Positions 15,400 to 39,413 of a stretch of DNA of 43,118 bases are shown piece by piece; positions within the stretch are counted from its first letter, which is position 1, and the number at the start of each line of letters is the position of its first letter. Below the pieces are notes generated by a model. It was not told the DNA's origin. It searched no databases and saw only the letters and a program-made list of their open reading frames with translations. The stretch spans positions 1 to 43,118 of the IMG/VR virus record IMGVR_UViG_3300010885_005968; one strand, 5' to 3'. The position numbers were made by a program, and so were the translations under genes. The stretch comes from a virus.

Positions 15400-18300
15400 A
15401 TGGCAAGCAACGACGAATACCCATTACCAGTTACTATAGACGATCAAAACAAGAGGCAGTCTGCTAGACATCTGCCTAGATTTTTTAGATCTGAGCAGAA
15501 TGAAAAATTTCTAGCTGGCGCACTTGATCCTCTATTGCAACCTGGAAAATTAAACAGAATAAATGCATATGTTGGTCGAAAAGATATTCCTAATTTCAAG
15601 ATTGATGACAACTATCTAAATGATCTCACAACAACTCGCCAATATTATCAATTAGAGCCTGGATTCGTATATGAAGATCCCAAGACAGGCGAACCTGTTT
15701 GGTTTAGTGATTATGCAGATTATATGAATAGGCTTGCATATTATGGTGCGAATACAAATAATCACGCAAAACTTAATTCTGAAGAAGCATATTCTTGGGA
15801 TCCAGGAATAGATTGGGATAAATTTGCTAATTTTAGAGAATACTATTGGTTACCAATAGGACCTGATCCTATAACTATCTATGGTAATCAATTAGCAACA
15901 GTTAGTACATTTACAGTAACAGCAATTAACGAGGGAGATAGATTTGATTATCTCTTCACTCCTGATGGATTAACAGCAAATCCAAGATTAACACTTTACA
16001 GAGGTAATACATATACCTTTAATATTAATGCAAAAAACAAGCCATTCTGCATCAAGGTAGAGCCAGTAATTGGCAACAGCTATATGTACGATGCCGGTGT
16101 GTCAAAGCAGAATGTAGATCTCGGAACTATCACATTTACTGTACCTTATGAAGCACCTGATTTACTCTATTATATTGACAATAAAGATATTAATTCTCAG
16201 GGATTTATTGACATAAAAGATATCGATGAAAATACATTCCTTGATATTGAAGCAGAAATATTGGGAAAAGTTCATTATACTAGTACTACAGGTATACGGT
16301 TCATTGACGGATTAAAATTAAAATTTATTGGAAATATTAGTCCAGCAAAATACTCAAAGGGATTTTGGTATGTAGAAGGCGTGGGCACTTCGATTAGCCT
16401 AGTAAATTATGCTGATCTAGAATCAACGCCACTTACTAATGATCCTACAGATCTTCCTTTTGACCTACAACCATTTGATAGTGTACCATTTGAAAATGCC
16501 AACAACTATCCAAATAAAAAAGAATACATAGTTATAAATCGAGCTAGCAAAGATAGAAATCCTTGGACAAGAAATAACCGTTGGTTCCACATACGAGTTA
16601 TAGAATTATCTGCTACAGCAAATAATACCGTAGCAGCACCTGATCAAACAGCAAGAGCTCATCGTCCTATCATAGAATTTTTACCAGATATAAAACTCTA
16701 TCAAAATGGATGGATAGCCAAACAGGATGTAGATTTAATTGATACTACTACAACTGATGTGTTTAGTAGCGTTGAAGGCACATTAGGCTATATTGTTGAC
16801 GGAAACCCATTGTTACCAGGCCAGAGAGTTTTGTTCACAGCAGACGTTGATCCTCTCGTTAATGGAAAGATATATACTGTTGGAACAATAACTGTAAATC
16901 ATATTGTTATTGATTTTATCTCTGCAATTTCAACAACTGAAGCTCCGTATAAAGTTACTTTTACTTTTGACAAGTTAGTAACACCACCTCCTGTAAATGT
17001 TCCATATACTATAACAGGAAATAGCAACAGCAATTATAACGGATTATATAATTCTATATCTAGCACAGTTTCTAGCATAACTTTAGTTTATCCAGTGAAC
17101 CCTGGAGTATTTGGAACCGGAATAACTAAAGGAACTTACGACAATTCAGGTAAGCGTCCACAGATAACACTAATACCAACTACTGATAGCGATCCGATCG
17201 AAGGCGAAGTTGTATATGCTAAGTTTGGTTCTAGTTACAGGGGCACGTCATTTTACTATGATGGATCTAGTTGGAAAGTATCACAGAAAAAAACCATATC
17301 AAATCAAGCACCGTTATTTGATATGTTTGATGAAAACAAGATTAGTTTTTCCGATACTATAACCTATCCAACTACATCCTTTTCAGGAAATAGGATATTT
17401 GGGTATAGGATTGGATTAGGCGCAAATGATACAGAATTAGGATTTCCTCTATACTATCGTTCGATAGATAATGTTGGAGATATTGAATTTGAATTTGATT
17501 TAGAAAACACTTCTTGGAATTATAAAAACGGAAATGTGTTATCTACAATAAATTCCTATCAGGGATTTGTGAGGAAATATAATCTAAACGGATCATTTAC
17601 ATATCTAAATGGCTGGACACAAACTCTAAGGCCTCTATATCAAAAGGCCGTAAGAGTATTAGAAATAACACAAACAACTAGCCAAATCGCTATCGACATC
17701 TTTGACAAGAGTGCATTATTGGGAGACATTAATGCACAAGTCTATGTTAATAATGTCAAGAGGAATGATATTTCTAGGGCCAACATCAATGGCGTTGCTT
17801 ATATAAAGTTTGCAACTGCTTTAAATCCGGGCGATCTAGTCGTTTATAAAGTACAAACTACCGCAGATAAAAATGCCAGAGGATATTATGAAATACCTTA
17901 TAACTGGCAGAATAATCCCTTTAACGAAACATTGGGATATTTTACATTGGGTGAAGCTATTGATCACGTCCGTACTATTGTTGAAAATAATCCAAGATTT
18001 TTAGGATCATTTCCAGGCGTAAGCAATTTACCATCACTCGGTAATGTTTCAAAATTTGGACATCGTTTCCTACAACATTCAGGATCATTTCCATTAGCAG
18101 CATATTTGATAACTGATAGACGAAACAATATAATAGATGCACTACAGTGGACTGCAACACAATATACACAATTTAAGAAAGAATTCTTGAGAATTGCAGG
18201 AGTTGGTGCATACGAAGGAACTATCTCTGAAAGAGTTGATCAGATATTATTAGAATTTTCAAAATCAAAATTTATTGATAGATCACCATTTTATTTTTCC

Positions 18301-21300
18301 GACATAGCTCCTTACAAAGGATTTACCCAGCGCGAGTATACAGTAGTTGATCCTAGATTACCAGTATTTGTTATTGACAGTATTTTCAATCCACAAACAC
18401 AAACTACACGTAGCGTATTGGTTTATGTCAATGAAGTACAGTTAGTACATCTAGTTGATTATACTTTTAGTAAAACTGATGCATTTGTTAGCATACTATT
18501 TCCTTTACATAAAAACGACAAAATTGTTATCAAAGATTACGCCAGCACTAACGGATCTTATATTCCATATACTCCTTCAGCATTAGGAATATACCCAAGT
18601 TATACTCCTACTGTATTCATTGACGACACATATCAAACGCCTGTAAAGGTAATACAAGGACACGATGGTAGTATCGTAGTTGCTTACAATGATTATAGAG
18701 ATGACCTCATTTTAGAACTTGAAAAGAGGATCTATAATACTAGGAGAGTAAACTATAATAACAGTATTTTCAATATACATAATGTAATAGGTGGATATTA
18801 CAGGAATAATGCTGTTTCAGCATTCTTTTCTAGAAGCGATATCAACAATGTATTATTACCAGAATTTTTAAAATGGAATTCTATCATAAGCCAAGATTAT
18901 AGCAGCAACTATTATTTTGATGAAGGCGATACTTTTACCTACAACTATAGTAATTTCTTTGCTCCTGATGGTGTTACGCATTTACCTGGTTGGTGGAGAG
19001 CAGTATACACATATGCTTACGACACTGATAGGCCACATACACATCCTTGGGAAATGCAAGGATTTACTATTAAACCAGTATGGTGGGATACGATATATGG
19101 TAAAGCTCCATATACTAGTGAAAACACAGTAATGTGGAATGCGATTGAAAAAGGTATAATTAACACTCCTGGATATAGGAGGACTGAATCTAGATATGCT
19201 CGTATGGGACTATCAAAGCATCTACCTGTAGATTCTAATGGTAATTTATTGAGCCCATTAGAAAGCAACTTTGTAAAAGATTTTGCTTTAATTAATGCTA
19301 AAGGAAATTATACATTTGGCGACAACGCACCAGTTGAAGCAGCGTGGAGACGTTCTAGCGAGTATCCATTCAGTGTAGTAAAAGCTATGTGTGTTCTTTG
19401 TGGCAGTGAATTTATTGGAAAAATGTGGGATAGATTTACAATAAAAAGAAATATAGCTGGACAGATTTATAATACCAATACGGGAAAAAGATTTAATACA
19501 GCAGATATAGTTTACCCAAATACACCATTAGGCAATCCCTTAGATCCAAATGTTGCTAGATCAATGAGTTGTGGGTTAGCTAATATTATTGATGATTATG
19601 TATTTTCAATTAATGCTGTAACCTTAGATACTTACAAAGAAGTAGTAAGCGGTCTCAATATTAAATTAAGCCATCGTTTAGGAGCATTTAGTGCTAAGGA
19701 CAAACTCAATGTCCTATTAGATAGTAGAAGTCCAAATGCTAGTGGCACAGTTTTCTTACCTCAAGACAATTATCAAATATTCTATAATCAAAGTTCTCCA
19801 GTAGCGAGCGTAGTTTATAGTGGTGTATTAGTTGAAAAGATCACCTATCAAAATACTTCATTAATAAATCCAATGGTAGGATATAAAATTTCTGGATATG
19901 ATAAGAAATACGGTGTTTTCCAGATATTTCCAGCTCTAGAAAATAAAAACGATTCTGTATTCAATGTAGGTGGTGTTACTGATACATTTTCTACTTGGAC
20001 ATCAGGACAGTATTATACCAAAGATTATGTTGTAAAAAATGAGAACAGTTATTATAAAGCTTTAGTAGCAAACACTGCGTCTGATAGTTTCACTACAGAT
20101 ATAAACAAGTGGGTTAAATTAAGCAGCTTACCTATTACTGGTGGTACTAGAGCGTTAAGAAGAACAAAGTTTTCAGATACTGTAAAAACAATTCCTTATG
20201 GAACTGTATTACCGAATATTCAAGCAGTTGTAGATTTCTTACTGGGATATCAGGAGAGATTAAAATCTGTAGGATTTAAATTTGACGATTTTAACAAAGA
20301 GCTCGGAGTAACTCTCGATTGGGAGACTAGTGCCAAGGAGTTTATGTTCTGGTCACTACAGAATTGGACACCAGGCGCTGTTATTACTTTAAGCCCTAGT
20401 GCAACCAATCTACAATTTACTCCTGTAATCACTGCATCAATTGATGATTTTAGTTCCACTGCGTTTGAATACAGTATGTTAAAAGCTGATGGTACTCCAT
20501 TAAGATTAAATGCGATTAATATACATAGGATCGGAAATGGATTCACTGCAAAGCCAACTAACGCTAGCGACGGTATATATTTTGTACGTGCTAATCTAAT
20601 ACAAAGAGAACACGTATTATTATTAGATAATGAATCTGATTTCCAAGATATCGTATATGAAAAAGTTAGTGGATATCGTCAAGGAAGAGTTAAATTAATA
20701 GGTTTTAAAACTAGTAACTGGGACGGAGGTTATACTACTCCAGGGTTTATGTATGATTCTGCTGTTATAAATCCTTGGCAGCCTTTTATTGATTATAATT
20801 TAGGAGATATCGTAAGTTATAAGAACAACAATTATGTTGCGATTACTAATGTAGCAGGATCTACTGAATTTGATTTCGTAAATTGGAAGCAGCAAGAAAA
20901 GGTACTACCTGCAGGATTGGTACCAAATTGGGATTACAGGATTGAACAGTTCCGTGATTTTTACGATCTAAATGCTAGTATTTTTGATGTAAACCAAAAG
21001 AAATTAGCACGACACCTCATTGGATATCAAGATCGACCCTATTTAGATAATATCATAATTGACGATGTAGCTCAATTTAAATTTTATCAAGGCTACATAA
21101 AGGAAAAAGGAACATTTAATAGTATCACCAAACTATTTGATGTTCTAAGGTCAAGCGGTTTTAGTACAGCAAACTTATATGAAGATTGGGCATTCAAAGT
21201 TGGAGATTATGGAGCATCTGCTGCTTATACTGAAATTGAATTTCCTCTAGACGAAAAGAAATTTTTACATAATCCACAAGATGTAGTTCTTACACCAGAT

Positions 21301-24300
21301 CTAGAATATCAAAATGATCTATCAATATACAATGTATCATCTGCAATGATACCTATAAAACCATATGATTATAATTCAAAACCATTTCCTGTACAAGATA
21401 TTGATAGCGACCAAACAAATTACGGAATCTTTAAGTATCAAGTAGCTGGATATGTTAGATCCGATGATGTTGATCACGTTATCTATAACAGGGCTGCATT
21501 ACTAAATTATGATATAACACAGTTCCGCAACGGTGATAAGATATGGTTAGGTTATACAGAAAATAATGATTGGGACGTTTTAGAATATATTGTTCTTGAT
21601 ATGTCTATCAAGACTTGGACAGTTGATTTTGTTACAAATTCCCACATATATCTATATTGCGACACTACTTTAGATCTTGCTAGAGGTGATATTATATCTG
21701 TATCAAATCTAGGATTAATTGACGGATCATACATAATACAAAATGTATCTGATAATATCATTACAATTTATACACTAAGCACATTAGCAACTATACCAAA
21801 TTTAGTTACTAGTGGTGTTGTACACATATTAAAATCAGTTAGATATAAAAATCTAACATCTGTTTCTACTAAGATTTACAATAAATTTGATATAGTTGGA
21901 GAAAAACTCTGGATTGATCAAGATTTATCTAAAAATTGGTTAGTCTTAGAAAATACTAATGCGTTCTTTAATATAAAAGGAACGGGTAAATCAGATGAGA
22001 TTCTTCCTTATAACAAATATGAAGGTCAGAAATATGGATACGATATTAAAATAAGCGCCGACAATCTATGCATGATAGTTAGTGCTCCATATGGAGACAT
22101 TAATAATCAAAATCTAGACAAGGGTAAAGGAATAGTTGTTGTATATCGTCGTCCTAATAATTTAAGCAGTTGGAATTTTTCCCAAATACTTAAAATTCCA
22201 AGAGACTATACAGTTGCTTCAGCTATACCTCCAAATGAGAAATTTGGTATTTCGTTAGCTATATCTGACGACGCAAAAATGATAGCAGTAGGAACAGCTT
22301 ACGCTAGTTATTTACAGAGTTTCTATAGGGGAGTATTCAACGAATATACTTCTTACTATAAGAATGATATAGTAAAATATAATGATGGAACAGCAACATT
22401 CTTGTTCAAAGCTAAAGTTAATATAGTTGGATCAGGATCTTCATTTATATATGAAAAGTGGGATCTTGTTGAATCTTATCTAGGTGATCCTGCTGGAGGA
22501 ATTAGACTTGAATTAAGTTATACTAGTAAAACTACACACGGTAGTGGATATTGGGTTACATTTAGTATACCTTTACAGACATTGGCACCACCTGCGAACG
22601 GTGCAAATTATACAGTATCAGGTAATACTAATAATAACTACAACGGGACATTTGTTGCAGTAGCAACTACTACTACGAGTTTAACATTAAATTATCCTAC
22701 AAACCCTGGTACATACGGTACTAGCACTATTACACAAGCAAAATACTCATCGGGTTTTGATAAACAGGGCATAGTTACTATATTCGAATATGACGAAACT
22801 GTTAGGAACTATGTATCATCAACTGTTATGGGATCTTACGATCCAAGTGAAAACGAATATTTTGGACACACATTAAAGTTTTCAAAAGATTCTGCAACAG
22901 GTGATGTATTACTATTTGCATCAAGTAATGATTACAGTTATGATAAATTTACTAAGCAAGTAATTGAAACTGCTATTAATTCAAAAGAGCTGCATCTAAA
23001 CAATGTTACCGGCATAAAGATTGGTCACGAAGTACATGGTTATAAAGATCCAGTAACTAAAGAATATGTTAATCTGTTAGTTACTCATATTAATACTAAT
23101 TCTAATAAAATAACTGTTGATCAATATGTAAAAATTACCAGCGGTCTTTCTCTAGATTTTATATTTGATAGAGTTGGAAGGATGCAAGTATTAAGGTTAA
23201 TAAACGATTCTAATCCTAGATGGGTATTTAACAGCATACAACCTTTTGTTGCCCTACCTTCAAACAGAGGATCATTCCCACTAAGCGCATTTAATATCAT
23301 TAGTAGAGCTCAATATGGATATAGTTTTGATTGTTCACCTGATTTAACAACTCTTGTTGTTTCTGCACCATTCTTAGGATCTGGTGTTGTTTACATATTT
23401 GAGATATCTAAACAAGAATATAAAACCAACTTAAATTTAGGTACAGTTGCATATTACTCATTTAGACTAACACAGGTAATTAACTCAGACACATTTATAG
23501 ATGATAACGTGAATAACTTAGTTGGAGGTTATCTTTCTAATGGTGACGGATTTGGATATCAGGTAGTATTGAACAATAATACACTGTTAGTATCTGCTCC
23601 CAATAACAGCTCAAAAGGCACACATAATGGCGCATTATTTAATTTTAAGTTAAACACTGAAACTAATCTTTATCAACTACAAGAAGTAATCATACCACCA
23701 ACAACAAATACATATGCATATGAAAGATTTGGTACTTCGTTATCAATTAATCCTCAAGGTAATGTTTTAGTTGTGGGTGCTAAGGGAGGTCCCTCTGTAC
23801 TTGATACAACTTTTGATTCTTATGCCAAGGGATTATACAATGATTATTTGATTAATCTAACAGCAGTAACATCAATTAGTGAAAATAATTATATTGAATT
23901 TAGTATACCTTTCCAAGATACTGCTCCATTAGTTGACATAATTTATTCTATTTCAGGAAATGATAATGAATGGTTCAATCATAATTTTATAGCTACTGAT
24001 AGTACACAAACATCTATAACATTTAAATTTGATTACGATCCTGGATCATTTGGAACTGGTAATACAGTAGCTACTAATCCTAATTTAGGTTATGTTTTAG
24101 ATCCTAATAGTACTTCAATTACTCCAACTACATTTGATAACAATTCAACAAAGTTTTACGATCAAATACCTTTCACTGGCGCAGTTTATGTTTATAATAG
24201 ATTTGATAATAACTTTATCTATGCTGATAGATTAACTCCAACTGACAGTTTATCAGCAAATGACGATTTTGGATTTAGTCTCTTTGCTTCGGAAAACTGT

Positions 24301-27300: not shown

Positions 27301-30300
27301 TATGCTCCTGAGCTAGCAAAAACTAAATTTGCAATAACTGTTGATAACATCGAGTATTATGGATCTCAATTTTCTATATCTGTAACACAAGAGTTACACG
27401 ATACATATAGTTCTATGGTCGGAACTGTTAAATTCTCAGAAGCAATTGAGGGCATTAGATTATCTAACGGAGCAATACAACCTAGGACTGTTGTAATTTC
27501 TTATTACAAGAATATCGGAATCTATGGTGCAGCAGACAGGATCAATTACGCATACGCCCCAACTAGTGGTCAGTATGGTAAAGATTTATCACAACTTATG
27601 ACTGGTATAGATTACGGTGGAGTTGAATTTACTAGCATTGCGTTTGATATTGTTGGTGGTTGGGACGTATTACCTTGGGATATTAGTTCTTGGGATACGA
27701 TTGTTACTATGAATGACGATTACGTTATTAAATTTAATAATGATTCTGAACTGACTAATTCATTTATGTTACCGTATACTCCCGAATCTGGAGATATAAT
27801 AAACGTCTATATAATTCTTAAAGGACAAACAGATACTGTTAGGGTGGATACCACTGATTATCCAGTCGATTACGGAATAGCCATTTATGGACATCCATTC
27901 CATTCTATGACTGGCACGTTTGATAAAACAACCAGCATAGTGCTTAACAGTTTAGTTTATTCTGCAACAATCTCGTACCCAACAAGATATAATGCTATTA
28001 CTAATATTACTACTATCTATATAGACATATTCACTAATTATGGTATTGAAACTTATTATGAGTTTCCTCAACCATTAGCAGGGTGGTTTATAGATTCTAA
28101 TCCTATATCTTTTGATGCGATAAGACACAATTATAATACTTGGAGCATACAGTTACGGGGCAATTATGAATTAGATTTTGAATTAAACGCAACTTATGAT
28201 TTAGAACCTCCTGAGGAAGACTATATCGAAATAACAGATACTGAATCTAATCTATTCAATTTTGGTCACGATGATTTTACTATAGAATTTTTTGTTAAAC
28301 CCTTTAAAGAACCAACAGAAAATAATACTCCAATACTTTCTATTGGAGAAGCTCTCCCTGGAAAGCATATAGTGATAGGTCAAAATATAAATGGAAACGG
28401 TGTTGGATTTAATATTCCGTTCAATGACAATATTAGCGACGAATATACTGGGTTTACTAATTTACCTCTAGATACTTGGACACATCTAGCACTAGTTAGA
28501 AAAAATTCCGTTGTCTATTTCTTCATTGATGGGGTGTTACAAGAAACTATAGATCAACCTAGCTTTAATTTTACTGCGACTGATACATTATTGATAGGTA
28601 CCGGTATGCAAGATTCGGACGGATTCTTTAGGGGATCGATAAGCAATCTTAGGATATTAAAAGGAAACGGATTATATACTGTTAATTTTGCAGTTCCGCA
28701 TCTTCCGTTAACTGCGATTGCTAATAATACATCATTGTTAGTATTAAATTCTGAAATTTTAACAGCATCGTTCATTGGTGATGGTATTGAAAATACGATA
28801 AACCTTGAACTACTTGGATATTTAAATCCAGGTGATCAATTAATTTTCCGTAAGAGCACTAGCGATGGAACTATACTACCAAACGATCAGTCTCTCCTTG
28901 ATTCATTAATATCAGGCGGAGATCTAGGATACGCATCAGCAAGAGGCATTGATCCTGATGAAATAATCATTGATGGCGATGAATTTGTTTCTGCTGATAC
29001 TTCTGGCGGTCCTGAAGAATTAGTACAGGGACATATAGTTGATACTGTTGACATTAAAGTTTATGATGCGCCACCAACTGGCGGTCCAAAAATAACCATT
29101 AGTAATTACATTGGCGATGGCACTACATCTTCTTTCCCAATTGGAACATTACCTCCTACTAAAGATTCAGTTGTAGTATTTGTTAATAAATTGTATCAAA
29201 CATCAACAAGTGTTGATTTCTTAAATAAAACTGTTAGCATACTTGACGATGGTCAAAATCCAAACCCACCATCATTGAGTAGTAAAGTAACTATACTCAC
29301 AATAGATACTGCTGGATATGATATTCTATCAAGAGAAGTATATATCGGCGATGCTGAAACTACAGATTTTGTAACTAAAGCAAGATATACTGCAAATAAT
29401 GTAAGCGTTTATATATTAATAGATGGGATTGAATCACCTGCATCTGTTGTTACAAGTAATATAGATAATCCAAATGCTGGAAACGTTGTTGTTAGACTGA
29501 AAGAGCCACCAGCTGTTAACAGTCTTATACAAATAATGGTATTCAGAGGAATCATACAAAAATACAGTAAAACAAGTAATGAAATTATTCCGGTTAGTGC
29601 TTCTAATGTATATCGACTAACTAGAGTTCCAGGAAACGCATTGCCGCTATCGGCATATGTTTGGGTAATTGTTACATATAGCGTTAATGGTGTAAAGAAA
29701 CAGGATTTCTTAAGGGCTCCTGACTACGAGAACTTTACATATCCTAATCCTATAATATTAGATAGTTTACGTTATTCGGCACACACTCTCGAATTAGGTT
29801 CAGTAAATGTATACAAGAATAATATAAAATTATTAGAGATACGTGATTATATATTTGATAATATGAACAATCAAATACACCTAACAGCTGGAACTGCGGT
29901 TTCAGGTGATAAGATCATAATAGAAATATTAAGAGATCACGATTTTGAAATTAGTGATTCAACTTTGGTCATTACAAAAAATTATAACCTACTTAACAAA
30001 GATTCTATCATACTCACTACATTTACCAATCACGATCAATGGGATATCGTACGTGAAAACAAGGAATTTACATTTACTAATGGATACGAATCTGTGTCTT
30101 ACGATATAACTCAATACGATACTTTTGGCACTAGTATCAATACATCTGGTATATTTAATTTACCTCGCACAGTATCAGATAAGAGCGCAGTATTAGTTTC
30201 TATTACTAGAGAATTGTTAACTCCAGACGTTGATTATGTAGTTCTAGATAATATGAAACAGATTAAGGTTATACTTCCTGATATCTTAACCAAGAAAGAT

Positions 30301-32232
30301 TACATAGAAATTATAACTACTAATCCTAAAGTATCTCAAAATAGTTTTGGATTTAGGATCTTTAAAGATATGTTGAACAGGATCCAATACAAGAGGATGG
30401 ATAACAAGAAGACAGTAATCTTAACTAAAGATCTAAATTATTTCGATACTACGATTGAAGTTGATGACGGATCAATATTAGATTTACCCAATAGAAACAA
30501 TAACCTTCCTGGTGTAATCAACGTCAATTTTGAAAGAATTGAATATATGGTAAAAACTGGAAATGTATTAAGCCAATTACGTCGCGGCACATTAGGTACT
30601 GCTATTAATGTTCTAGTTCCTGCAGGAACAGCACTAACAAGTATGAGTTATAGTGACACTATTCCTTATACAGATAGTGAAATTAAAAATACATTTATCG
30701 CTGATACTGCAATATTAGAGAATATTGGAATACTATTAGGTACTAGCAGTGGAATAATATATGGTACAGAAATGATCGCTCCAGATCATGCTGTACCTGC
30801 TGTTATAACAATAAACAATATTGATATAGCATTTAATTTAGAAAGTGTCTATGCTGGTGGAATAGTTGCTAATAGGAATATAATTAAAAACGCCATTAAT
30901 TCATATACTAATATAACTGGAGTATCAGCTGATAGAGTTGTTAACATTGATCATCCTGCTGTTGACAATGATACAAAGGGTATTGATCTAATCCCAACAA
31001 AGATTAATATTTCTGTGATAGATTATGTAAGTACAACTAGCAATCATCCTTATCTAATTACATTCACTATCCCTGAACAGCCTATCGCATTATCTCTAGG
31101 CCAGGGTTATAGTATAACTGGTAGTTTAAACACGGATTATAACGGTACATATGAACTAGTTAGTTCAACAGTTAACGAAATAACATTGGCATATCCAATC
31201 GATCCAGGAACATACCTAAGTAAGATAAACATACGTTCATTTGCATCAAAAACTGGACAAGGTCCATATTTTGTTACATTTAACATACCTGTTTCTAACA
31301 CTGCTCCGACAACTGGTATAGCTTATAATATTGAAGGTAATATAAATCAGAAATATAATACTTCTTATTATTCTTCTACAATCATTGCTACTTCAAGCAC
31401 TGTTTCTACTATAACATTTAGATATCCAACAGATCCAGAAATTTATATCACAGATATAGTAGTAATTTCTAAACTTGATACAGTAGCAATGGGTCCTAAC
31501 AATACTGCACCATATCGTGTAACTTATAATATTACTCCTCAGGATATCGTTCCAGATACAGGAATCTATTATAATGTTGCTGGCGCTAAAGGTGTAACAG
31601 ATTATTCTATACAGTCAGAATTCCAAAATGTATCTTTCTACAACGGATTATATGTTGCAGTTGCTAGTACGCACACTACAATAACATTGGAATATCCAAC
31701 TGATCCTGGAATATTTGCAGGTGCTGCTACTGGTGCTGTAATTAGACTTAGTAGTTTAGGAAAAATAAGTTCAAATACTAAATTAAATAGAGATGCTCCT
31801 AGCACTATTATTGTAGGTAATTCATACATATTACCATTAAATTATGTACCAAGAGTTACTGAGTCAACTGTAGCTGTAGATAATACTTGGTACAGAGAAA
31901 CTATTCCTACATCATATGGTCAGAATGACGAAATGGAAGTATTTGTAAATGGCATTAGGATGAACAAAGCACCATTACTTGTGTACGACCAAACACTAGC
32001 ACAAGATAGTTACAATGGTGCAGGTGACCGACAAATTGAAGCAGACTATAGTGTTAATGGTGTTGATAGTGCAATACGATTTACAAATGTTCCAACTCCG
32101 GGTTCAACTATTAAAATAGTGGTTAGAAAAGGTACTACTTGGTATAAACTAGGTGAGACAGTACCTTTTGCATTTAGTGAAAGTAGGGTTGCTAAGTTCA
32201 TTACATCAACTTCGGTTGATTTACCTAAATAA
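15400..32232 (+). CDS. Giant modular baseplate wedge protein in the gp7 position (5610 residues)
   Basis: A single open frame of 16.8 kb encodes a protein of roughly 0.6 MDa. The N-terminus (ARHLPRFFRSEQNEKFLAG, LDPLLQPGKLNRINAYVGRK, YSWDPGIDWDKFANFREYYW) matches the large marine T4-like structural protein that follows gp6, the slot of T4 gp7 (1032 residues). The C-terminus (DEMEVFVNGIRM, QDSYNGAGDRQIEADYSV) also matches that family. Between them lie a cupredoxin-like segment (about 194-267), six copies of an unnamed ~70-residue module, three chitin-binding-like modules, a probable seven-bladed propeller (about 2205-2999), a conserved core with HIGEVWWDISTIKYTWYEQG (about 3070), GxGY motifs, a LamG-like domain (4272-4439) and SQLRRGTLGTA (about 5060). 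TTGGAG precedes the ATG. Role as wedge scaffold is family knowledge; host-surface binding is inferred. Confidence 0.85.
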   Translation: MASNDEYPLPVTIDDQNKRQSARHLPRFFRSEQNEKFLAGALDPLLQPGKLNRINAYVGRKDIPNFKIDDNYLNDLTTTRQYYQLEPGFVYEDPKTGEPVWFSDYADYMNRLAYYGANTNNHAKLNSEEAYSWDPGIDWDKFANFREYYWLPIGPDPITIYGNQLATVSTFTVTAINEGDRFDYLFTPDGLTANPRLTLYRGNTYTFNINAKNKPFCIKVEPVIGNSYMYDAGVSKQNVDLGTITFTVPYEAPDLLYYIDNKDINSQGFIDIKDIDENTFLDIEAEILGKVHYTSTTGIRFIDGLKLKFIGNISPAKYSKGFWYVEGVGTSISLVNYADLESTPLTNDPTDLPFDLQPFDSVPFENANNYPNKKEYIVINRASKDRNPWTRNNRWFHIRVIELSATANNTVAAPDQTARAHRPIIEFLPDIKLYQNGWIAKQDVDLIDTTTTDVFSSVEGTLGYIVDGNPLLPGQRVLFTADVDPLVNGKIYTVGTITVNHIVIDFISAISTTEAPYKVTFTFDKLVTPPPVNVPYTITGNSNSNYNGLYNSISSTVSSITLVYPVNPGVFGTGITKGTYDNSGKRPQITLIPTTDSDPIEGEVVYAKFGSSYRGTSFYYDGSSWKVSQKKTISNQAPLFDMFDENKISFSDTITYPTTSFSGNRIFGYRIGLGANDTELGFPLYYRSIDNVGDIEFEFDLENTSWNYKNGNVLSTINSYQGFVRKYNLNGSFTYLNGWTQTLRPLYQKAVRVLEITQTTSQIAIDIFDKSALLGDINAQVYVNNVKRNDISRANINGVAYIKFATALNPGDLVVYKVQTTADKNARGYYEIPYNWQNNPFNETLGYFTLGEAIDHVRTIVENNPRFLGSFPGVSNLPSLGNVSKFGHRFLQHSGSFPLAAYLITDRRNNIIDALQWTATQYTQFKKEFLRIAGVGAYEGTISERVDQILLEFSKSKFIDRSPFYFSDIAPYKGFTQREYTVVDPRLPVFVIDSIFNPQTQTTRSVLVYVNEVQLVHLVDYTFSKTDAFVSILFPLHKNDKIVIKDYASTNGSYIPYTPSALGIYPSYTPTVFIDDTYQTPVKVIQGHDGSIVVAYNDYRDDLILELEKRIYNTRRVNYNNSIFNIHNVIGGYYRNNAVSAFFSRSDINNVLLPEFLKWNSIISQDYSSNYYFDEGDTFTYNYSNFFAPDGVTHLPGWWRAVYTYAYDTDRPHTHPWEMQGFTIKPVWWDTIYGKAPYTSENTVMWNAIEKGIINTPGYRRTESRYARMGLSKHLPVDSNGNLLSPLESNFVKDFALINAKGNYTFGDNAPVEAAWRRSSEYPFSVVKAMCVLCGSEFIGKMWDRFTIKRNIAGQIYNTNTGKRFNTADIVYPNTPLGNPLDPNVARSMSCGLANIIDDYVFSINAVTLDTYKEVVSGLNIKLSHRLGAFSAKDKLNVLLDSRSPNASGTVFLPQDNYQIFYNQSSPVASVVYSGVLVEKITYQNTSLINPMVGYKISGYDKKYGVFQIFPALENKNDSVFNVGGVTDTFSTWTSGQYYTKDYVVKNENSYYKALVANTASDSFTTDINKWVKLSSLPITGGTRALRRTKFSDTVKTIPYGTVLPNIQAVVDFLLGYQERLKSVGFKFDDFNKELGVTLDWETSAKEFMFWSLQNWTPGAVITLSPSATNLQFTPVITASIDDFSSTAFEYSMLKADGTPLRLNAINIHRIGNGFTAKPTNASDGIYFVRANLIQREHVLLLDNESDFQDIVYEKVSGYRQGRVKLIGFKTSNWDGGYTTPGFMYDSAVINPWQPFIDYNLGDIVSYKNNNYVAITNVAGSTEFDFVNWKQQEKVLPAGLVPNWDYRIEQFRDFYDLNASIFDVNQKKLARHLIGYQDRPYLDNIIIDDVAQFKFYQGYIKEKGTFNSITKLFDVLRSSGFSTANLYEDWAFKVGDYGASAAYTEIEFPLDEKKFLHNPQDVVLTPDLEYQNDLSIYNVSSAMIPIKPYDYNSKPFPVQDIDSDQTNYGIFKYQVAGYVRSDDVDHVIYNRAALLNYDITQFRNGDKIWLGYTENNDWDVLEYIVLDMSIKTWTVDFVTNSHIYLYCDTTLDLARGDIISVSNLGLIDGSYIIQNVSDNIITIYTLSTLATIPNLVTSGVVHILKSVRYKNLTSVSTKIYNKFDIVGEKLWIDQDLSKNWLVLENTNAFFNIKGTGKSDEILPYNKYEGQKYGYDIKISADNLCMIVSAPYGDINNQNLDKGKGIVVVYRRPNNLSSWNFSQILKIPRDYTVASAIPPNEKFGISLAISDDAKMIAVGTAYASYLQSFYRGVFNEYTSYYKNDIVKYNDGTATFLFKAKVNIVGSGSSFIYEKWDLVESYLGDPAGGIRLELSYTSKTTHGSGYWVTFSIPLQTLAPPANGANYTVSGNTNNNYNGTFVAVATTTTSLTLNYPTNPGTYGTSTITQAKYSSGFDKQGIVTIFEYDETVRNYVSSTVMGSYDPSENEYFGHTLKFSKDSATGDVLLFASSNDYSYDKFTKQVIETAINSKELHLNNVTGIKIGHEVHGYKDPVTKEYVNLLVTHINTNSNKITVDQYVKITSGLSLDFIFDRVGRMQVLRLINDSNPRWVFNSIQPFVALPSNRGSFPLSAFNIISRAQYGYSFDCSPDLTTLVVSAPFLGSGVVYIFEISKQEYKTNLNLGTVAYYSFRLTQVINSDTFIDDNVNNLVGGYLSNGDGFGYQVVLNNNTLLVSAPNNSSKGTHNGALFNFKLNTETNLYQLQEVIIPPTTNTYAYERFGTSLSINPQGNVLVVGAKGGPSVLDTTFDSYAKGLYNDYLINLTAVTSISENNYIEFSIPFQDTAPLVDIIYSISGNDNEWFNHNFIATDSTQTSITFKFDYDPGSFGTGNTVATNPNLGYVLDPNSTSITPTTFDNNSTKFYDQIPFTGAVYVYNRFDNNFIYADRLTPTDSLSANDDFGFSLFASENCVAIGTPNRTFAGVPYGSAFIFNYDTTSWQKLREATPLVSIDKFKKSFYYNTATNKLIGNLDLYDPAKGRIPAIADQEIKYQTYYDPAVYQYHGDNTLATNTDQVWTDTHIGEVWWDISTIKYTWYEQGDATYRNLQWGQMFPGSVVNVYEWVESKYLPSKYATIADTGAGLAAGISGTPKDTTDVTYSTKTKYDKISGIVTTLYYFWVSNRTIVPPFMNRKLSANDIANLISDPKSQGYRTVSITSENSLSLTNVKPKLIGKNVSLNLQFYEVDNTDLAIHREYVLITNGDKNTVIPELLENKWFDSLIGSDVVGNSVPDSKLSLRQRYGNLISPRQSWFVNRVEALKQNIEYINSVLQDYNLSNNVNLTNLKKQDLPPSLESGEIDVIIDTVEELKYVGTNGLITSQLSLILKDGKLLDCYIDNPGYGYGKNRVYQSVEGANGIEPVLWYGPTCKIVGTTGSGGEIQTVIDSYGSIVSAKITKRGQGYNSILGPTGTDIGTTVVVRDFTVLVSSDSEANNGWSIHTWSFVNDVEAERYRVAIQSSLSLLNQNFLKNWLRIKTQSYNVANYWKFVDWYASGYTAQSDVKYIINHTSDLATLTSNVGDLIKITNAGLGAWLLMVKIANTGDPDFTIDYQVVGQQNATIQLLSSLYNYNSDLGYDENYSFDLDLYDSNPTTELRIILESIRDDIFVGNLRIEYVNLFFNTIHYILSEQHFTDWFFKTSFLKMSQIVGNLNQNPTFQTDPLADYESYIEEVKPYKTKVREFISSYQGYDYSHNTVSDFDLPSHYNPETKKLEAVDQYSTYINTYPWANWLENHTYQVTDIVINQTGSGYIYRPVVVISPPVANAIVWIKATVLNENTYISFNHNYYITTSAGTTGTVPPTHTKGSVLNGTVMFTYVATDATASAYIASGVLAEIVLDNPGYGFLSSPIVTIRGGNNSVGFVPATATAFIGNSKVRSMTLKMKFDRYQKNYYVENFRYTDTFEVTTLQSSFKLTYAPELAKTKFAITVDNIEYYGSQFSISVTQELHDTYSSMVGTVKFSEAIEGIRLSNGAIQPRTVVISYYKNIGIYGAADRINYAYAPTSGQYGKDLSQLMTGIDYGGVEFTSIAFDIVGGWDVLPWDISSWDTIVTMNDDYVIKFNNDSELTNSFMLPYTPESGDIINVYIILKGQTDTVRVDTTDYPVDYGIAIYGHPFHSMTGTFDKTTSIVLNSLVYSATISYPTRYNAITNITTIYIDIFTNYGIETYYEFPQPLAGWFIDSNPISFDAIRHNYNTWSIQLRGNYELDFELNATYDLEPPEEDYIEITDTESNLFNFGHDDFTIEFFVKPFKEPTENNTPILSIGEALPGKHIVIGQNINGNGVGFNIPFNDNISDEYTGFTNLPLDTWTHLALVRKNSVVYFFIDGVLQETIDQPSFNFTATDTLLIGTGMQDSDGFFRGSISNLRILKGNGLYTVNFAVPHLPLTAIANNTSLLVLNSEILTASFIGDGIENTINLELLGYLNPGDQLIFRKSTSDGTILPNDQSLLDSLISGGDLGYASARGIDPDEIIIDGDEFVSADTSGGPEELVQGHIVDTVDIKVYDAPPTGGPKITISNYIGDGTTSSFPIGTLPPTKDSVVVFVNKLYQTSTSVDFLNKTVSILDDGQNPNPPSLSSKVTILTIDTAGYDILSREVYIGDAETTDFVTKARYTANNVSVYILIDGIESPASVVTSNIDNPNAGNVVVRLKEPPAVNSLIQIMVFRGIIQKYSKTSNEIIPVSASNVYRLTRVPGNALPLSAYVWVIVTYSVNGVKKQDFLRAPDYENFTYPNPIILDSLRYSAHTLELGSVNVYKNNIKLLEIRDYIFDNMNNQIHLTAGTAVSGDKIIIEILRDHDFEISDSTLVITKNYNLLNKDSIILTTFTNHDQWDIVRENKEFTFTNGYESVSYDITQYDTFGTSINTSGIFNLPRTVSDKSAVLVSITRELLTPDVDYVVLDNMKQIKVILPDILTKKDYIEIITTNPKVSQNSFGFRIFKDMLNRIQYKRMDNKKTVILTKDLNYFDTTIEVDDGSILDLPNRNNNLPGVINVNFERIEYMVKTGNVLSQLRRGTLGTAINVLVPAGTALTSMSYSDTIPYTDSEIKNTFIADTAILENIGILLGTSSGIIYGTEMIAPDHAVPAVITINNIDIAFNLESVYAGGIVANRNIIKNAINSYTNITGVSADRVVNIDHPAVDNDTKGIDLIPTKINISVIDYVSTTSNHPYLITFTIPEQPIALSLGQGYSITGSLNTDYNGTYELVSSTVNEITLAYPIDPGTYLSKINIRSFASKTGQGPYFVTFNIPVSNTAPTTGIAYNIEGNINQKYNTSYYSSTIIATSSTVSTITFRYPTDPEIYITDIVVISKLDTVAMGPNNTAPYRVTYNITPQDIVPDTGIYYNVAGAKGVTDYSIQSEFQNVSFYNGLYVAVASTHTTITLEYPTDPGIFAGAATGAVIRLSSLGKISSNTKLNRDAPSTIIVGNSYILPLNYVPRVTESTVAVDNTWYRETIPTSYGQNDEMEVFVNGIRMNKAPLLVYDQTLAQDSYNGAGDRQIEADYSVNGVDSAIRFTNVPTPGSTIKIVVRKGTTWYKLGETVPFAFSESRVAKFITSTSVDLPK
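15979..16200 (+). other. Cupredoxin-like segment in the giant protein
   Basis: Residues about 194-267 read LTLYRGNTYTFNIN, then KPFCIKVE, YDAGVSKQNVDLGTITFTVP and PDLLYYID. This is the layout of a domain common in marine phage tail proteins that looks like a cupredoxin fold. The Cys/His copper ligands of true cupredoxins are not evident. The fold assignment is from pattern only. Confidence 0.4.
16942..17142 (+). repeat. Module copy 1 (residues 515-581)
   Basis: First copy of a roughly 70-residue module with the pattern (P)YxVTF...P, YxIxGNxNxxYNGxY, then S-T/I-T-L-x-YPxxPGxxG. Here it reads APYKVTFTFD, YTITGNSNSNYNGLY, TLVYPVNPGVFGTG. It looks like a small beta-rich domain that I cannot name. 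It precedes a conserved segment with QAPLFDMFDENKISFSD. Confidence 0.75.
19981..20136 (+). other. Chitin-binding-like module 1 in the giant protein
   Basis: Residues 1528-1579 follow the CBM5/12-type pattern of Trp, Y-x-x-x-D-x-V, Y-Y-K-A and a final W: STWTSGQYYTKDYVVK, then SYYKALVANT and NKWVKL. Such modules bind polysaccharide in bacterial enzymes and occur in phage tails. Binding here is inferred from pattern only. Confidence 0.5.
20761..20910 (+). other. Chitin-binding-like module 2 in the giant protein
   Basis: Residues 1788-1837 show NPWQPFIDYNLGDIVSYKNN, NYVAITNV and NWKQQ, the clearest match to the W...Y..GDIV.Y...Y.A....W pattern of CBM5/12. Aromatic residues expected on the binding face are present. 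Confidence 0.55.
22321..22485 (+). other. Chitin-binding-like module 3, inserted in propeller blade 2
   Basis: Residues 2308-2362 read FNEYTSYYKNDIVKYNDG, FLFKAKVNIV and YEKWDLVE, again the Y-x-x-x-D-I-V-x-Y ... K-A ... W pattern. It sits between the inner and outer strands of blade 2, just before module copy 2. Confidence 0.45.
22537..22752 (+). repeat. Module copy 2 (residues 2380-2451), inserted in propeller blade 2
   Basis: It reads GSGYWVTFSIP, YTVSGNTNNNYNGTF and SLTLNYPTNPGTYGTS. Blade 2 strands FGISLAIS...IAVG lie before it and GIVTIFEY after it, so the module decorates a propeller loop. Confidence 0.75.
23869..24075 (+). repeat. Module copy 3 (residues 2824-2892), inserted in propeller blade 6
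   Basis: This is a more diverged copy: NNYIEFSIPFQDTAP, YSISGNDNEWFNHNF and SITFKFDYDPGSFGTG. It falls between LVVGAKGG and GAVYVYNR of blade 6. The YNG core is changed to FNH. Confidence 0.65.
25570..27120 (+). repeat. GxGY-type motifs in the giant protein (four copies)
   Basis: Four segments share a G-x-G-Y/F turn followed by a P-x-V-x-I-type strand or an equivalent: DNPGYGYGKNRVY (about 25570), KRGQGYNS (about 25750), TGSGYIYRPVVVIS (about 26794) and DNPGYGFLSSPIVTIRGG (27070-27120). The motif recurs widely in phage tail and fibre proteins, probably as short beta-repeats. Function is unknown. Confidence 0.5.
28213..28716 (+). other. LamG-like (concanavalin-type jelly-roll) domain in the giant protein
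   Basis: Residues 4272-4439 show the pattern of phage LamG/concanavalin domains: FNFGHDDFTIEFFVKP, then TWTHLALVRKNSVVYFFIDG, LLIGTG, and FFRGSISNLRILKG. Such domains often bind glycans or stabilise fibres. The W-T-H-x-A-L-x-R and F-x-G-x-I-S-N-L-R-I motifs make this the most confident sub-domain call. Confidence 0.8.
31036..31245 (+). repeat. Module copy 4 (residues 5213-5282)
   Basis: It reads HPYLITFTIPEQP, YSITGSLNTDYNGTY and EITLAYPIDPGTY. It is the first of three back-to-back copies just before the conserved C-terminus. Confidence 0.75.
31246..31479 (+). repeat. Module copy 5 (residues 5283-5360)
   Basis: It reads SKTGQGPYFVTFNIP, YNIEGNINQKYNTSY and TITFRYPTDPEIY. Its opening is very close to copy 7 in the tail fibre at 34321 (SKTGSGPYFVTF), the closest pairing between the two genes. 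Confidence 0.75.
31480..31758 (+). repeat. Module copy 6 (residues 5361-5453)
   Basis: It reads TAPYRVTYNITPQ, YYNVAGAKGVTDY, then SFYNGLYVAVAST and TTITLEYPTDPGIF. It is longer than the others owing to about 15 extra residues between the G and YNG elements. Confidence 0.7.
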
Positions 32233-32235
32233 ATA
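32228..32235 (+). promoter_or_regulatory. Weak late promoter candidate before the 217-aa gene
   Basis: AATAAATA matches the NATAAATA pattern and overlaps the end of the giant gene. Only 13 bases separate it from the next ATG (32249), so a transcript starting here would have almost no leader and might lose the GAGAG ribosome binding site. The match may simply be chance in lysine-stop codons. Confidence 0.25.
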
Positions 32236-32248
32236 AAGAGAGTGATAA

Positions 32249-32902
32249 ATGGATAAGAAAAAAGTTAATCAACAGGATCAGGACAAGAAAATGACCAGGA
32301 AACCAGATGAAAAAGGCGCCTTTAATATTGAAGGACATATCAAGATTTTCGATCCCGAAAGTGGTCAGGTCTTTGTTAACAAGAGAAATGCTATCCATTA
32401 TGAAAATATAAGCATAGCTCTAGCAGCAAGCCTGTCTAATCAGGGCACGAGTTATATCTATCAAATGGCATTTGGTAATGGTGGAACATATGTTGATCCG
32501 ACTGGAATTATAACTTATCTCACACCGAATACTGTTGGTGCTAACAGCAGTCTTTATAATCAAACCTTTGTTAAAGTTGTTGACGGTAACAGCGTTGCAA
32601 ATTTAGATCCATTGAGAAATAACATACAAACAATGCATACTACAGGTAATAACTATACTGATTTGATAGTATCTTGTTTACTAGATTACGGCGAGCCTAC
32701 TGGACAAGGAGCATTTGATAATGCAACTGGTCTAAATGATTTGTATACTTTTGATGAACTAGGACTAGTAGGATACAATCCTAACGGTGATGGAAAATTA
32801 TTAACTCACGTTCTATTTCATCCAGTGCAAAAAAGTTTGAATAGGTTATTACAGATTGATTATACTGTTCGTATACAAAGCTTATCGGGGTATAGTGCAT
32901 AA
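32249..32902 (+). CDS. Conserved marine T4-like virion protein in the gp8 position
   Basis: This 217-residue protein resembles a structural protein that follows the large gp7-slot protein in marine T4-like phages. Hallmarks are EGHIKIFDPESGQVFVNKRN, AIHYENISIALA, QMAFGNGGTYVDPTGIITYL, DLIVSCLLDYGEP, FDELGL and LLTHVLFHPVQKSLNRLLQI. No clear similarity to T4 gp8 (334 residues) is visible, so only the position suggests that role; it could also connect the fibres. The first 25 residues are highly charged and probably disordered. The TAA overlaps the next ATG (TAATG), coupling it to the first fibre gene. Confidence 0.75.
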   Translation: MDKKKVNQQDQDKKMTRKPDEKGAFNIEGHIKIFDPESGQVFVNKRNAIHYENISIALAASLSNQGTSYIYQMAFGNGGTYVDPTGIITYLTPNTVGANSSLYNQTFVKVVDGNSVANLDPLRNNIQTMHTTGNNYTDLIVSCLLDYGEPTGQGAFDNATGLNDLYTFDELGLVGYNPNGDGKLLTHVLFHPVQKSLNRLLQIDYTVRIQSLSGYSA

Positions 32903-35310
32903 TGGCTTACAAAATACAATTTACTAACAATACTAACAATGCACCATTAGTAGTCAATGATAATACTATTAATACACAGACGAGTTTAGCATTTCCTGGC
33001 AGGAACGTTGTTGGATTCTCAACGATTATTGGTGAGGATTTTTTACACCTCCTAGAAAACTTTGCTGATTCAGCTTCTCCAAGCAATCCAGTTGAAGGTC
33101 AGTTATGGTACGATAATAGTGAAGGAAGCACACAGCTACGTATATATGATGGACTCAATTGGATCCCAGCAGGATCAGTTAATAAATCAACTAAAGCTCC
33201 AAATTCCGGTTCGGTTGGAGATTTGTGGATAGATACTTTACATCAACAATTATATCTATATTCTGGTACTAACTGGGTACTAGTTGGACCAACATTTAGT
33301 TCGGGTTTAAAAAGTGGATTACAAGTTGAAATTATTTTAGATTCGTTAGGAATTGAAAAAACAATCCTATCAACATATCTAAATGATCAGATTATTTCTA
33401 TATATTCTACGGCAGCATTTATACCAAAGACAACTATAAGTGGTTTTACTACTATTAAACCCGGAATAAACATTAGTACTAATAGTTTTTCTGATGGATC
33501 AATTGGTACTAAACTCTGGGGTACTGCCGAAAAAGCAGAATCATTAATTGTTAACGGTACCACAATATCAGCAGCAAGTTTTTTAAGATCAGATTCAGAA
33601 GGATTAACAACATATCCATTATCTGTTAAGACAGATACTGGTATCAGCGTTGGAACAGAAAATCAGCTTAAACTACAATTATCAGGTTCTGTAGGTACAC
33701 TTTATCATAGTACTTCTCAATCAGCTTTAGATTTAAAACTAAACATTAGTGGACAAGCAACTACTATTATGAGATTAGATGCAACAACCGGAAACGTTGG
33801 TATTAACAATTTAAATCCTCAAGCAAAATTAGATGTTGCCGGAACCGCAAAGATTAGTGGTGATGTGCATATTACTAGTGTAACAGACTCTCTCACATCA
33901 TCAACAGGCGCACTAATTGTTGATGGCGGAGTAACTATTCAAGGTAATGTTAATTTAAACAGCGACACATATAATTCAGGTACACTTTATCTAAATTACG
34001 GTGAAGGATTATCTCAGAGTGGAGGACCGTATCCAGGAATGATGCCAACTACAGATAGCAATATAGATTTAGGTGGCACTAATTCATCAATGGGATATTA
34101 TCCGTTTGGTACTATTTACGCCAACAAGTTTGTTGCTGCTAATCAGGGATCTTTTGTTGGTAATTTAACTGGTAATATTTCTGGAAATAGTATATCAACA
34201 ACTAGATTACAAGCAAGCACTCGATTTACTATGGACGGTGATGTTACTTCGTCAGGATTTAGTTTTGATGGTCTAACTGGCGGAACTGCTTATGCGATTG
34301 ACACAACAGTTGGAACTTTAGGATTTGTAAGCAAGACCGGTAGCGGACCTTATTTTGTTACTTTTGCTATCGTAATACAACCTGTTAAACCGCCTGTAGG
34401 AAATAGTTATATCGTATCTGGAAATAATAATCCATCTTACAATGGAAGTTATACAGCTACAGGAAGCACAACAACAACTATTACTCTACAATACAATACT
34501 AATCCAGGAGTATATGGTGCTGGAACTACAACAATAACTGCGGGAACTGGTCTAGTAAAAACATTTACTACAAAATTAGGTTCTGATTTGATTGCTTCAA
34601 AGGAAGAAGTAACCGATTCAAGTGATTCAGATGTATTGTTAATTTATAGACCAAGTGCTGGACTTAGGAAGACATCAAAACCAAATTTTGTAAAAACTCT
34701 ACCTCTAGTTCCAGTTGGGAGCATTTTTCCTTTTGCTGGACTGAGAGAAAAAGTCCCAACTGGATATCTCTTATGTGACGGTAGTGAGCAAGAACAAGCA
34801 AAATATTTAGATTTATTTTCTGTCATAGGATATACATACGGTGATCCTTTAAAATTAAAAGGTAGGTATAGCTTTAAAATTCCAGACCTTAGAGGTAGAT
34901 TTGCTTTAGGTCTAGATAATATGGACAACGGAAATACAGTTAGTACTATTAATGGTGCTCAAAAAACTATTACTACTCCAGCAAATGTTGTTACTGATCC
35001 CGCAGCAAAAACAATTGGAAATGTTAGCGGAAGCCAAACATATACTTTAGATATTAACAATGTACCGCCACACCAACATAAACTTGTTGGCGATAAAGGA
35101 ACTCAGTTTTATGCTCTAAATACAACTACAACTACACCAACAGACAGTGGTTCTAGTAAAAATTTAGGAGCTGCATCTTCGGGAGGTCAGCGTATTGATA
35201 GGACTGGAGATATATTATTTGGACCTACAGCAGCACAGCCGCTAACTGTTATGAATCCTTTTATGAGTATTAATTACATAATATATGCAGGAAAGGTTTA
35301 CACAACATAA
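32902..35310 (+). CDS. Tail fibre protein with phage tail-collar (gp12-like) C-terminus
   Basis: The 802-residue protein starts with a head domain shared by the next two genes: LLENFADSASPSNPVEGQLW, then GDLWIDTLHQQLYLYSGTNW and LVGP (about residues 50-135). A shaft-like middle includes GNVGINNLNPQAKLDVAG. Residues 474-550 are module copy 7. The C-terminus from about 604 (PVGSIFPFAG, VPTGYLLCDGSE) is the collar domain of short tail fibres such as T4 gp12. IPDLRGRFALG and PPHQHKL follow, the HQH (724-726) matching the metal-binding HxH pair of gp12. It is probably a receptor-binding fibre. Start and stop both form TAATG overlaps with neighbours. Confidence 0.85.
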   Translation: MAYKIQFTNNTNNAPLVVNDNTINTQTSLAFPGRNVVGFSTIIGEDFLHLLENFADSASPSNPVEGQLWYDNSEGSTQLRIYDGLNWIPAGSVNKSTKAPNSGSVGDLWIDTLHQQLYLYSGTNWVLVGPTFSSGLKSGLQVEIILDSLGIEKTILSTYLNDQIISIYSTAAFIPKTTISGFTTIKPGINISTNSFSDGSIGTKLWGTAEKAESLIVNGTTISAASFLRSDSEGLTTYPLSVKTDTGISVGTENQLKLQLSGSVGTLYHSTSQSALDLKLNISGQATTIMRLDATTGNVGINNLNPQAKLDVAGTAKISGDVHITSVTDSLTSSTGALIVDGGVTIQGNVNLNSDTYNSGTLYLNYGEGLSQSGGPYPGMMPTTDSNIDLGGTNSSMGYYPFGTIYANKFVAANQGSFVGNLTGNISGNSISTTRLQASTRFTMDGDVTSSGFSFDGLTGGTAYAIDTTVGTLGFVSKTGSGPYFVTFAIVIQPVKPPVGNSYIVSGNNNPSYNGSYTATGSTTTTITLQYNTNPGVYGAGTTTITAGTGLVKTFTTKLGSDLIASKEEVTDSSDSDVLLIYRPSAGLRKTSKPNFVKTLPLVPVGSIFPFAGLREKVPTGYLLCDGSEQEQAKYLDLFSVIGYTYGDPLKLKGRYSFKIPDLRGRFALGLDNMDNGNTVSTINGAQKTITTPANVVTDPAAKTIGNVSGSQTYTLDINNVPPHQHKLVGDKGTQFYALNTTTTTPTDSGSSKNLGAASSGGQRIDRTGDILFGPTAAQPLTVMNPFMSINYIIYAGKVYTT
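34321..34551 (+). repeat. Module copy 7, in the collar fibre (residues 474-550)
   Basis: Same module as in the giant protein: SKTGSGPYFVTFAI, YIVSGNNNPSYNGSY and TTTTITLQYNTNPGVYGAG. It lies between the fibre shaft and the collar domain. The DNA differs clearly from the other copies, so this is not a recent exact duplication. Confidence 0.8.
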
Positions 35311-38453: not shown

Positions 38454-39413
38454 ATGCCAGTAGTTGGTGATATTATAACTGCCGATAGTTATAACAGTTT
38501 ACAATCAGCTGTTTATAATATTTTAGGTGCAGGAACAGGACAGTTTGGATACGGTAAAAATTTAAACAGTATACCTGTTACTGCTGGTTCTGATATCTTA
38601 GCATCACAGTGGGCAAGTCTAAAGGTTGATATCTTAACTGCTGCATATCATCAAGGTACTGTATCAGTAGAAAATATACAAAATTTACCTACAGCCAATT
38701 TAAATAATGATTTCTATCTAACAAATGAAGATTATACATTTTTCCAACTTGCTATATCAACAATACAGGCTAATTCTTTTGCATTAGGAGCAGGTCAATA
38801 TAGTGATGAAAGTATGCTTACTCCAGCTGGCGGACCAGTAACTAGTGTTAGGACTACAAGTTGGGCAAATCTTAGTAAACCAACTGTATCTCATAATTTT
38901 ACAGTATCTTTTAATAATTCCGCGGATGCTAGATACTTTTTTAATGCAGGCGGATCTATACGTTTAACACCTAGCATAACTGGTAGCTCAAATACTAGTC
39001 AAAATAGGGCATGGACTCGTTTGCTTACTGCTATAGGAACCGTTATATTTGATCATAGCACTACTACTGCAAGTGCTGGATCTGGGTCTGCGATAGGATT
39101 TTATAATTTAACAACAACTCCAAAGACAGTTTTTACTGCCCAAGGATCAGGAAGTTATGCTGTTGCAGCATATGCATCATCTACATATGTAGTTAAAATG
39201 AGTTGTGATGTTGCAAATAATTCTAACGGTGGTGCTACTCAAATATTTGTAACTATCAATTTTAATGATAATCATACCAATGCTCATAGCATTAATTATA
39301 GTGATTCAGTAAATGGAACATTAACCTCTGCTGTAAATATTAGAAGAGCATCTGGATCCTATGTAAGTGTAGTTGCACCTAAAGGCACAAACACTACATT
39401 ACTAAGTGCTTAA
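38454..39413 (+). CDS. Tail-associated structural protein A
   Basis: 319 residues, function not known. The N-terminus (PVVGDIITADSYNSLQSAVY, ILGAGTGQFGYG) and the C-terminal part (VRTTSWANLSKPTVSHNFTV, ADARYFFNAGGSIRLTP, AIGFYNLTTT, SVNGTLTSA) recur in the following gene and in other marine T4-like phages within tail regions. Two domains are evident: an N-terminal helical part of about 75 residues and a beta-rich C-terminal domain of about 210. TTGGAG precedes the ATG. It is probably a fibre or fibre-accessory subunit. Confidence 0.7.
   Translation: MPVVGDIITADSYNSLQSAVYNILGAGTGQFGYGKNLNSIPVTAGSDILASQWASLKVDILTAAYHQGTVSVENIQNLPTANLNNDFYLTNEDYTFFQLAISTIQANSFALGAGQYSDESMLTPAGGPVTSVRTTSWANLSKPTVSHNFTVSFNNSADARYFFNAGGSIRLTPSITGSSNTSQNRAWTRLLTAIGTVIFDHSTTTASAGSGSAIGFYNLTTTPKTVFTAQGSGSYAVAAYASSTYVVKMSCDVANNSNGGATQIFVTINFNDNHTNAHSINYSDSVNGTLTSAVNIRRASGSYVSVVAPKGTNTTLLSA

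Follow-up and report, generated by a model that had tools for sequence, protein, structure and literature searches.

Here, we describe a protein module that occurs seven times, in two different genes, within a virus record of 43,118 bases (the whole stretch analysed, hereafter the window). The copies are homologous, several of their sites are cleanly empty in related phages, and at one loop the module alternates with unrelated cassettes. The reading which we hold to be slightly better than an even bet is that the module would be a self-contained beta-barrel of about 70 to 75 residues, from a family outside the public domain libraries searched. In uncultured phages, largely of the jumbo type, it would have entered surface loops of tail-fibre and baseplate proteins repeatedly and in frame, as a displayed accessory with passive binding of the glycan type. 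That tail proteins are mosaics of domains is already known and well documented (PMC10684548). Our observations agree with this picture in that domains are common to otherwise unrelated tail proteins, and differ from it in following one new module family through the individual loops of a giant baseplate-region gene. The module family, its extent and this insertion history are new; the literature searched yielded general precedents only, and no published description of the module.

Both host genes are encoded on the plus strand within a tail/baseplate cluster. The cluster comprises a baseplate hub and tail lysozyme (8099), a gp25-like wedge protein (11400) and a wedge subunit (11894), followed by the giant gene, a small gene, the Collar-domain fibre and more fibres. 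The giant gene (15400-32232) encodes a virion structural protein of the baseplate region with 5610 aa (phrog_10938, E 9e-222). Homology and synteny link it to virion structural proteins of the jumbo phages Atu_ph07 of Agrobacterium and PA5oct of Pseudomonas, where the annotation of the latter protein, gp355, cites ESI-MS/MS. The fibre gene (32902-35310, 802 aa) matches the Pfam family Collar (E 3e-14) and tail families of the PHROGs. Upstream of the tail cluster, on the minus strand at 949-3734, the window carries AAA/SMC-like and calcineurin-like phosphoesterase genes of the SbcC/SbcD type, a pair that has the same order in PA5oct.

The initial annotation had claimed seven copies, and all of them are present, each within about 30 nt of the start given there; a six-frame search of the window found no eighth. 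Each copy was recovered by a profile HMM built from the other six with 54 to 81 bits (E 8e-19 to 3e-27), far above the decoy ceilings of 5.9 bits for shuffled and 5.6 bits for reversed sequence (full model). Copies 1 to 6 lie in the giant gene and copy 7 in the collar fibre, all on the plus strand. Copy 1 (16933-17145; 66 bits) occupies a hairpin loop, site A. Copies 2 (22507-22755, site B) and 3 (23866-24093, site C) are found in a propeller, as had been proposed for two copies; the propeller gives FG-GAP_2 Pfam matches and is of the integrin-alpha type in the predicted structure. Copy 3 is diverged and has FNH in place of the YNG signature. The three copies described as back to back are copies 4 (31033-31242, site D), 5 (31243-31473) and 6 (31483-31749), which form a tandem trio; copy 5 carries an insertion of 5 residues and copy 6 one of 13. 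Copy 7 (34321-34557) precedes the Pfam Collar domain, in line with the single copy placed before a fibre collar. Pairwise identities among the seven range from 30 to 51% for protein and from 48 to 56% for DNA, and the third positions of identical four-fold codons mostly differ. The claim that the DNA is well diverged while the protein pattern is held is therefore correct.

A widespread domain has been missed entirely by the libraries searched. Among 70 members scanned, the module is covered by no family of Pfam, NCBIfam or PDB sequences: the best Pfam score is that of MBG_3 (E 6e-4, two members), NCBIfam gives single sporadic matches, and phrog_9998, of unknown function, touches five of the 70 with a best E of 6e-6. 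From copy 7 and 69 relatives, AlphaFold2 predicts a single confident domain of six strands (pLDDT 91.6, pTM 0.82), which speaks against the copies being unrelated beta-repeats. Its fold is predicted to be a closed beta-barrel, as read from the strand order and from Foldseek matches. By Foldseek, many predicted tail proteins of uncultured phages and cyanophages share this fold (best E 7e-4, most of the listed matches with probability 1.00). The near-invariant residues, G, Y-N-G and P-G, are consistent with turns. Conservation extends to no acidic, basic or histidine residue other than the D/N of the D-P-G turn, and the composition is rich in Thr, Ser, Gly and Asn with about 5% charged residues. 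This lack of conserved charged or catalytic residues led us to reject an enzymatic role.

Matches to PDB structures are weak and led by the phi92 endosialidase and by E1 enzymes. The endosialidase (PDB 4hiz) is the best fold match of the module, with an E of 0.23 (probability 0.90-0.92) which is not significant, and the module has no sequence match to it. The same chain also matches the propeller region of the giant protein (E 2.6e-6). Copies 2 and 3 interrupt the FG-GAP propeller, and a kinship with an endosialidase-type barrel set in a propeller is putative at the E-value of the module. Chains of UBA1 and UBA6 also rank among the top fold matches, weakly (E 0.37-1.1, probability 0.4-0.75). 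This match presumably falls on FCCH, a domain of the ubiquitin E1 enzymes whose family (Pfam E1_FCCH) is absent among the 25 of 35 Pfam families listed for the 70 members. Phage Ig-like domains are promiscuous accessory domains of virion proteins, and the module resembles them as a small beta-domain spread across unrelated structural genes, often as an accessory. It differs from them in that no Ig family of Pfam scores above its cut-off (Ig_7 reaches E 0.024 in one of 70 members), and in that its top PDB fold matches are barrels.

A search of viral contigs by two degenerate DNA patterns, encoding TLxYPT[DN]PG and GNxNxxYNGxY, gave at least 177 loci. With an iterated profile we obtained at least 322 matches in 136 ORFs at 125 loci including the window, while reversed sequence reached 11.8 bits at most; all these module counts are lower bounds because the scans are limited by the DNA patterns. 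The loci are environmental viral contigs nearly throughout. After masking of the module, the ORFs fall into about ten gene clusters (six by a looser criterion), mostly of tail and fibre genes. The clusters include giant tail-like proteins of up to 4,813 aa, ORFs of 201-285 aa, the collar fibre, tail fibres bearing CBM_5_12 and others. The small module-bearing ORFs look virion-like, and the module takes variable positions across proteins. Hence the profile is not confined to two genes at fixed positions; such confinement is what the initial annotation had named as speaking against mobility. Among 84,980 cellular genomes searched with the first pattern, none of 36 pattern matches was a module, the best being a short fragment of 11.5 bits. 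A tblastn search of plasmids gave no module match, and a single-protein scan for the module found nothing. A tblastn search of cultured phages, in which copy 7 and three copies from other phages served as queries, gave nothing significant, which makes a weak case for absence from isolates, as the low-complexity filter of BLAST may hide Thr-rich copies.

This distribution bears on whether the copies are ordinary internal repeats that were multiplied locally in one lineage. The tandem arrangement of copies 4 to 6 and the presence of six of the seven copies in one gene would fit such duplication. Against it stand the gene families of other phages that carry the module at variable positions, a clean empty site in the collar gene of a relative, and copy 2, whose nearest relatives are not among the copies of its own genome. 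Local duplication alone is largely refuted and we regard it as very improbable.

The comparison of insertion sites proposed earlier was carried out on about 170 ORFs homologous to the giant gene, aligned with all modules masked, and homologous genes do show empty and filled sites. Site A (window aa ~505-588) is a loop flanked by two short stretches of conserved sequence. Among 92 relatives of the first scan that cover it, 80 have 0-24 residues there and four carry the module (L188, L189 and, more distant, L191 and L192). Six others hold a cassette of the HGL..G type (89-104 residues), one a third type, and the loop of PA5oct is 303 residues long. The second scan, whose contigs overlap the first in part, adds L314 with the module, 64 empty loci and five with other inserts. 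The HGL-type cassette (L235, L257, L259, L262, L268, L269) has about 95 residues with the pattern HGLTTGxQVxYxNxGN...GLxNRxxYYVxV; no Pfam family matches it, and no sequence relation to the module was found (hhalign probability 0.1). Site C is filled in the window, L188, L189 and L314, and empty in 30 relatives of the second scan. In L321, an unrelated insert of about 95 residues stands in place of copy 3 (between window aa 2820 and 2899). The window, L188 and L189 carry the module in their collar fibres, with a clean empty junction in L193, and three further fibres (L125, L173, L017) align across the site without it. Conversely, other clades (L190/L194/L195, L193, L196, L197) carry the module where the window has none. 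Copies 1, 3, 5, 6 and 7 are closest to the same-site copies of relatives, and copy 4 scores about equally with its own orthologue and with unrelated modules.

One could also suppose that all sites were filled in an ancestor and emptied by repeated loss, with insertion not being the main process. The module at site A of L191 and L192, shared with the window clade in spite of their distance, fits this supposition. It has to account for the empty site A of 80 of the 92 relatives and for the unrelated cassettes found in others, and for copy 2 it needs three independent losses among four close phages. We consider it improbable, though not to the same degree as local duplication.

Site B is filled in the window only; its sister L188 as well as L314 and L189 lack copy 2 and have 7-13 residues there. 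Where the window has GDPAGG-module-KYSS, the sequence of L189 is GDPGGYSS. In a maximum-likelihood tree built from sequence without the modules, the phages group as (((window, L188) 100/99, L314) 93/90, L189) 100/100, so by parsimony a single gain on the window branch suffices where the alternative takes three losses. The nearest relatives of copy 2 are modules in tail proteins of other phages (57-65% identity), and the other copies of its own genome reach at most 49%, with the caveat that the modules are short and that consensus-like copies score well against everything. With L184, the similarity spans the module from edge to edge (65% protein, 63.5% DNA). Since copy 2 is nearest to foreign modules, acquisition from outside is indicated rather than local duplication, and this probably took place on the branch of the window itself. 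Direct repeats at the junctions of site B do not exceed chance (longest 5 nt). A CBM_5_12-like motif suspected by eye just before copy 2 was not confirmed.

The initial annotation had proposed a mobile module shared among tail genes. The presence in many genes and the empty and filled sites support it. Module pairs with at least 55% identity and unrelated flanks number 443, and since the best of them are 72% identical, no recent transfer event was caught and the copies are old. The data thus speak for recurrent insertion over evolutionary time and do not demonstrate very recent shuttling. Movement probably occurs by ordinary low-homology recombination between co-infecting phages.

From the empty states we derive how the module may be carried. 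As the empty loops are short, its termini must be close together, and as addition to a loop leaves the host protein undisturbed, the module is likely an accessory displayed outside the tail tip. In the propeller-context model the inserted modules have low confidence, and we therefore make no claim on the exposure and orientation of the propeller copies.

By analogy, the function is most likely displayed adhesion, perhaps to sugars, with a spacer as the main rival. As a spacer or stabiliser, the modules would be inert beads without a ligand that lengthen or stiffen loops, tandems and the shafts of fibres, or that are packed between subunits. The tandem trio, the insertion of copy 7 just before the fibre collar and a very low-charge sequence rich in Thr, Ser, Gly and Asn with conserved turns only are compatible with this. 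Single insertions in tight propeller loops lengthen no axis, however, and the replacement of the module by unrelated cassettes at site A suggests more than a length requirement there. Several copies also diverge somewhat faster than their flanks, which goes against a spacer and lends circumstantial support to adhesion. We hold a spacer role to be possible but the less likely reading.

In the adhesion reading, which we prefer, the module would be a passive, binding-type domain rather than an enzyme, making weak, multivalent contacts with host-surface polymers such as glycans. The context agrees with this: the giant protein contains Laminin_G_3, and two fibres bearing close relatives of copy 2 (L020 and L122) contain CBM_5_12, whose match in the giant protein of the window stays below its cut-off. 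The Laminin_G_3 or concanavalin-A-like lectin domain is located at aa ~4274-4420 (E 3e-15). Counting against adhesion, no binding site or ligand was identified in the module, the conserved residues look structural, and copies 5 and 6 diverge no faster than their flanks.

The closest known parallel is evolved Dit, i.e. the insertion of carbohydrate-binding modules into distal tail proteins of siphophages; such inserts restore infection of exopolysaccharide-bearing hosts (PMC10688798). The window is similar in that small foreign domains of several insert types sit inside a conserved baseplate protein and vary among relatives; internal insertion variable among relatives is observed at sites A, B and C and at the collar. 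It differs in its hosts, a giant jumbo-phage-type virion protein of phrog_10938 and a Collar-domain fibre instead of Dit, and in the module, which is of a different, uncatalogued family with carbohydrate binding only putative.

At one loop, natural phages display the empty, the filled and the alternative state, so that the exchange of domains in a baseplate-region protein can be observed directly, and the family illustrates how the tails of phages might be reassembled from exchangeable units. With the module profile, many giant tail proteins of environmental phages now labelled "hypothetical" can be annotated. Should the modules bind host glycans, knowing whether a phage has them could be of use in predicting the hosts of uncultured jumbo phages.

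A broader view, which we put forward tentatively as the less expected outcome, is that the giant protein would have dedicated docking loops, site A foremost, that exchange at least four unrelated small cassettes, the module being one of them, and thereby retune host adhesion of the tail tip. Further along the window, the adjacent ORFs 39471-40607 and 38454-39413 are paralogous (38% identity), and the second has an extra stretch at residues ~92-173 (SFTGVISSTTLTVSSVTGTIAIGD...). In L319, a relative of this stretch (37% identity, pairwise E 9e-6) occupies site A of the giant gene. Judged by this similarity, the stretch and its relative appear to form a second family of cassettes that tail genes have in common. 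Another adjacent pair of homologous ORFs, 41020-41907 and 41900-42757 (27% identity), has no Pfam match and looks glycosyltransferase-like by eye.
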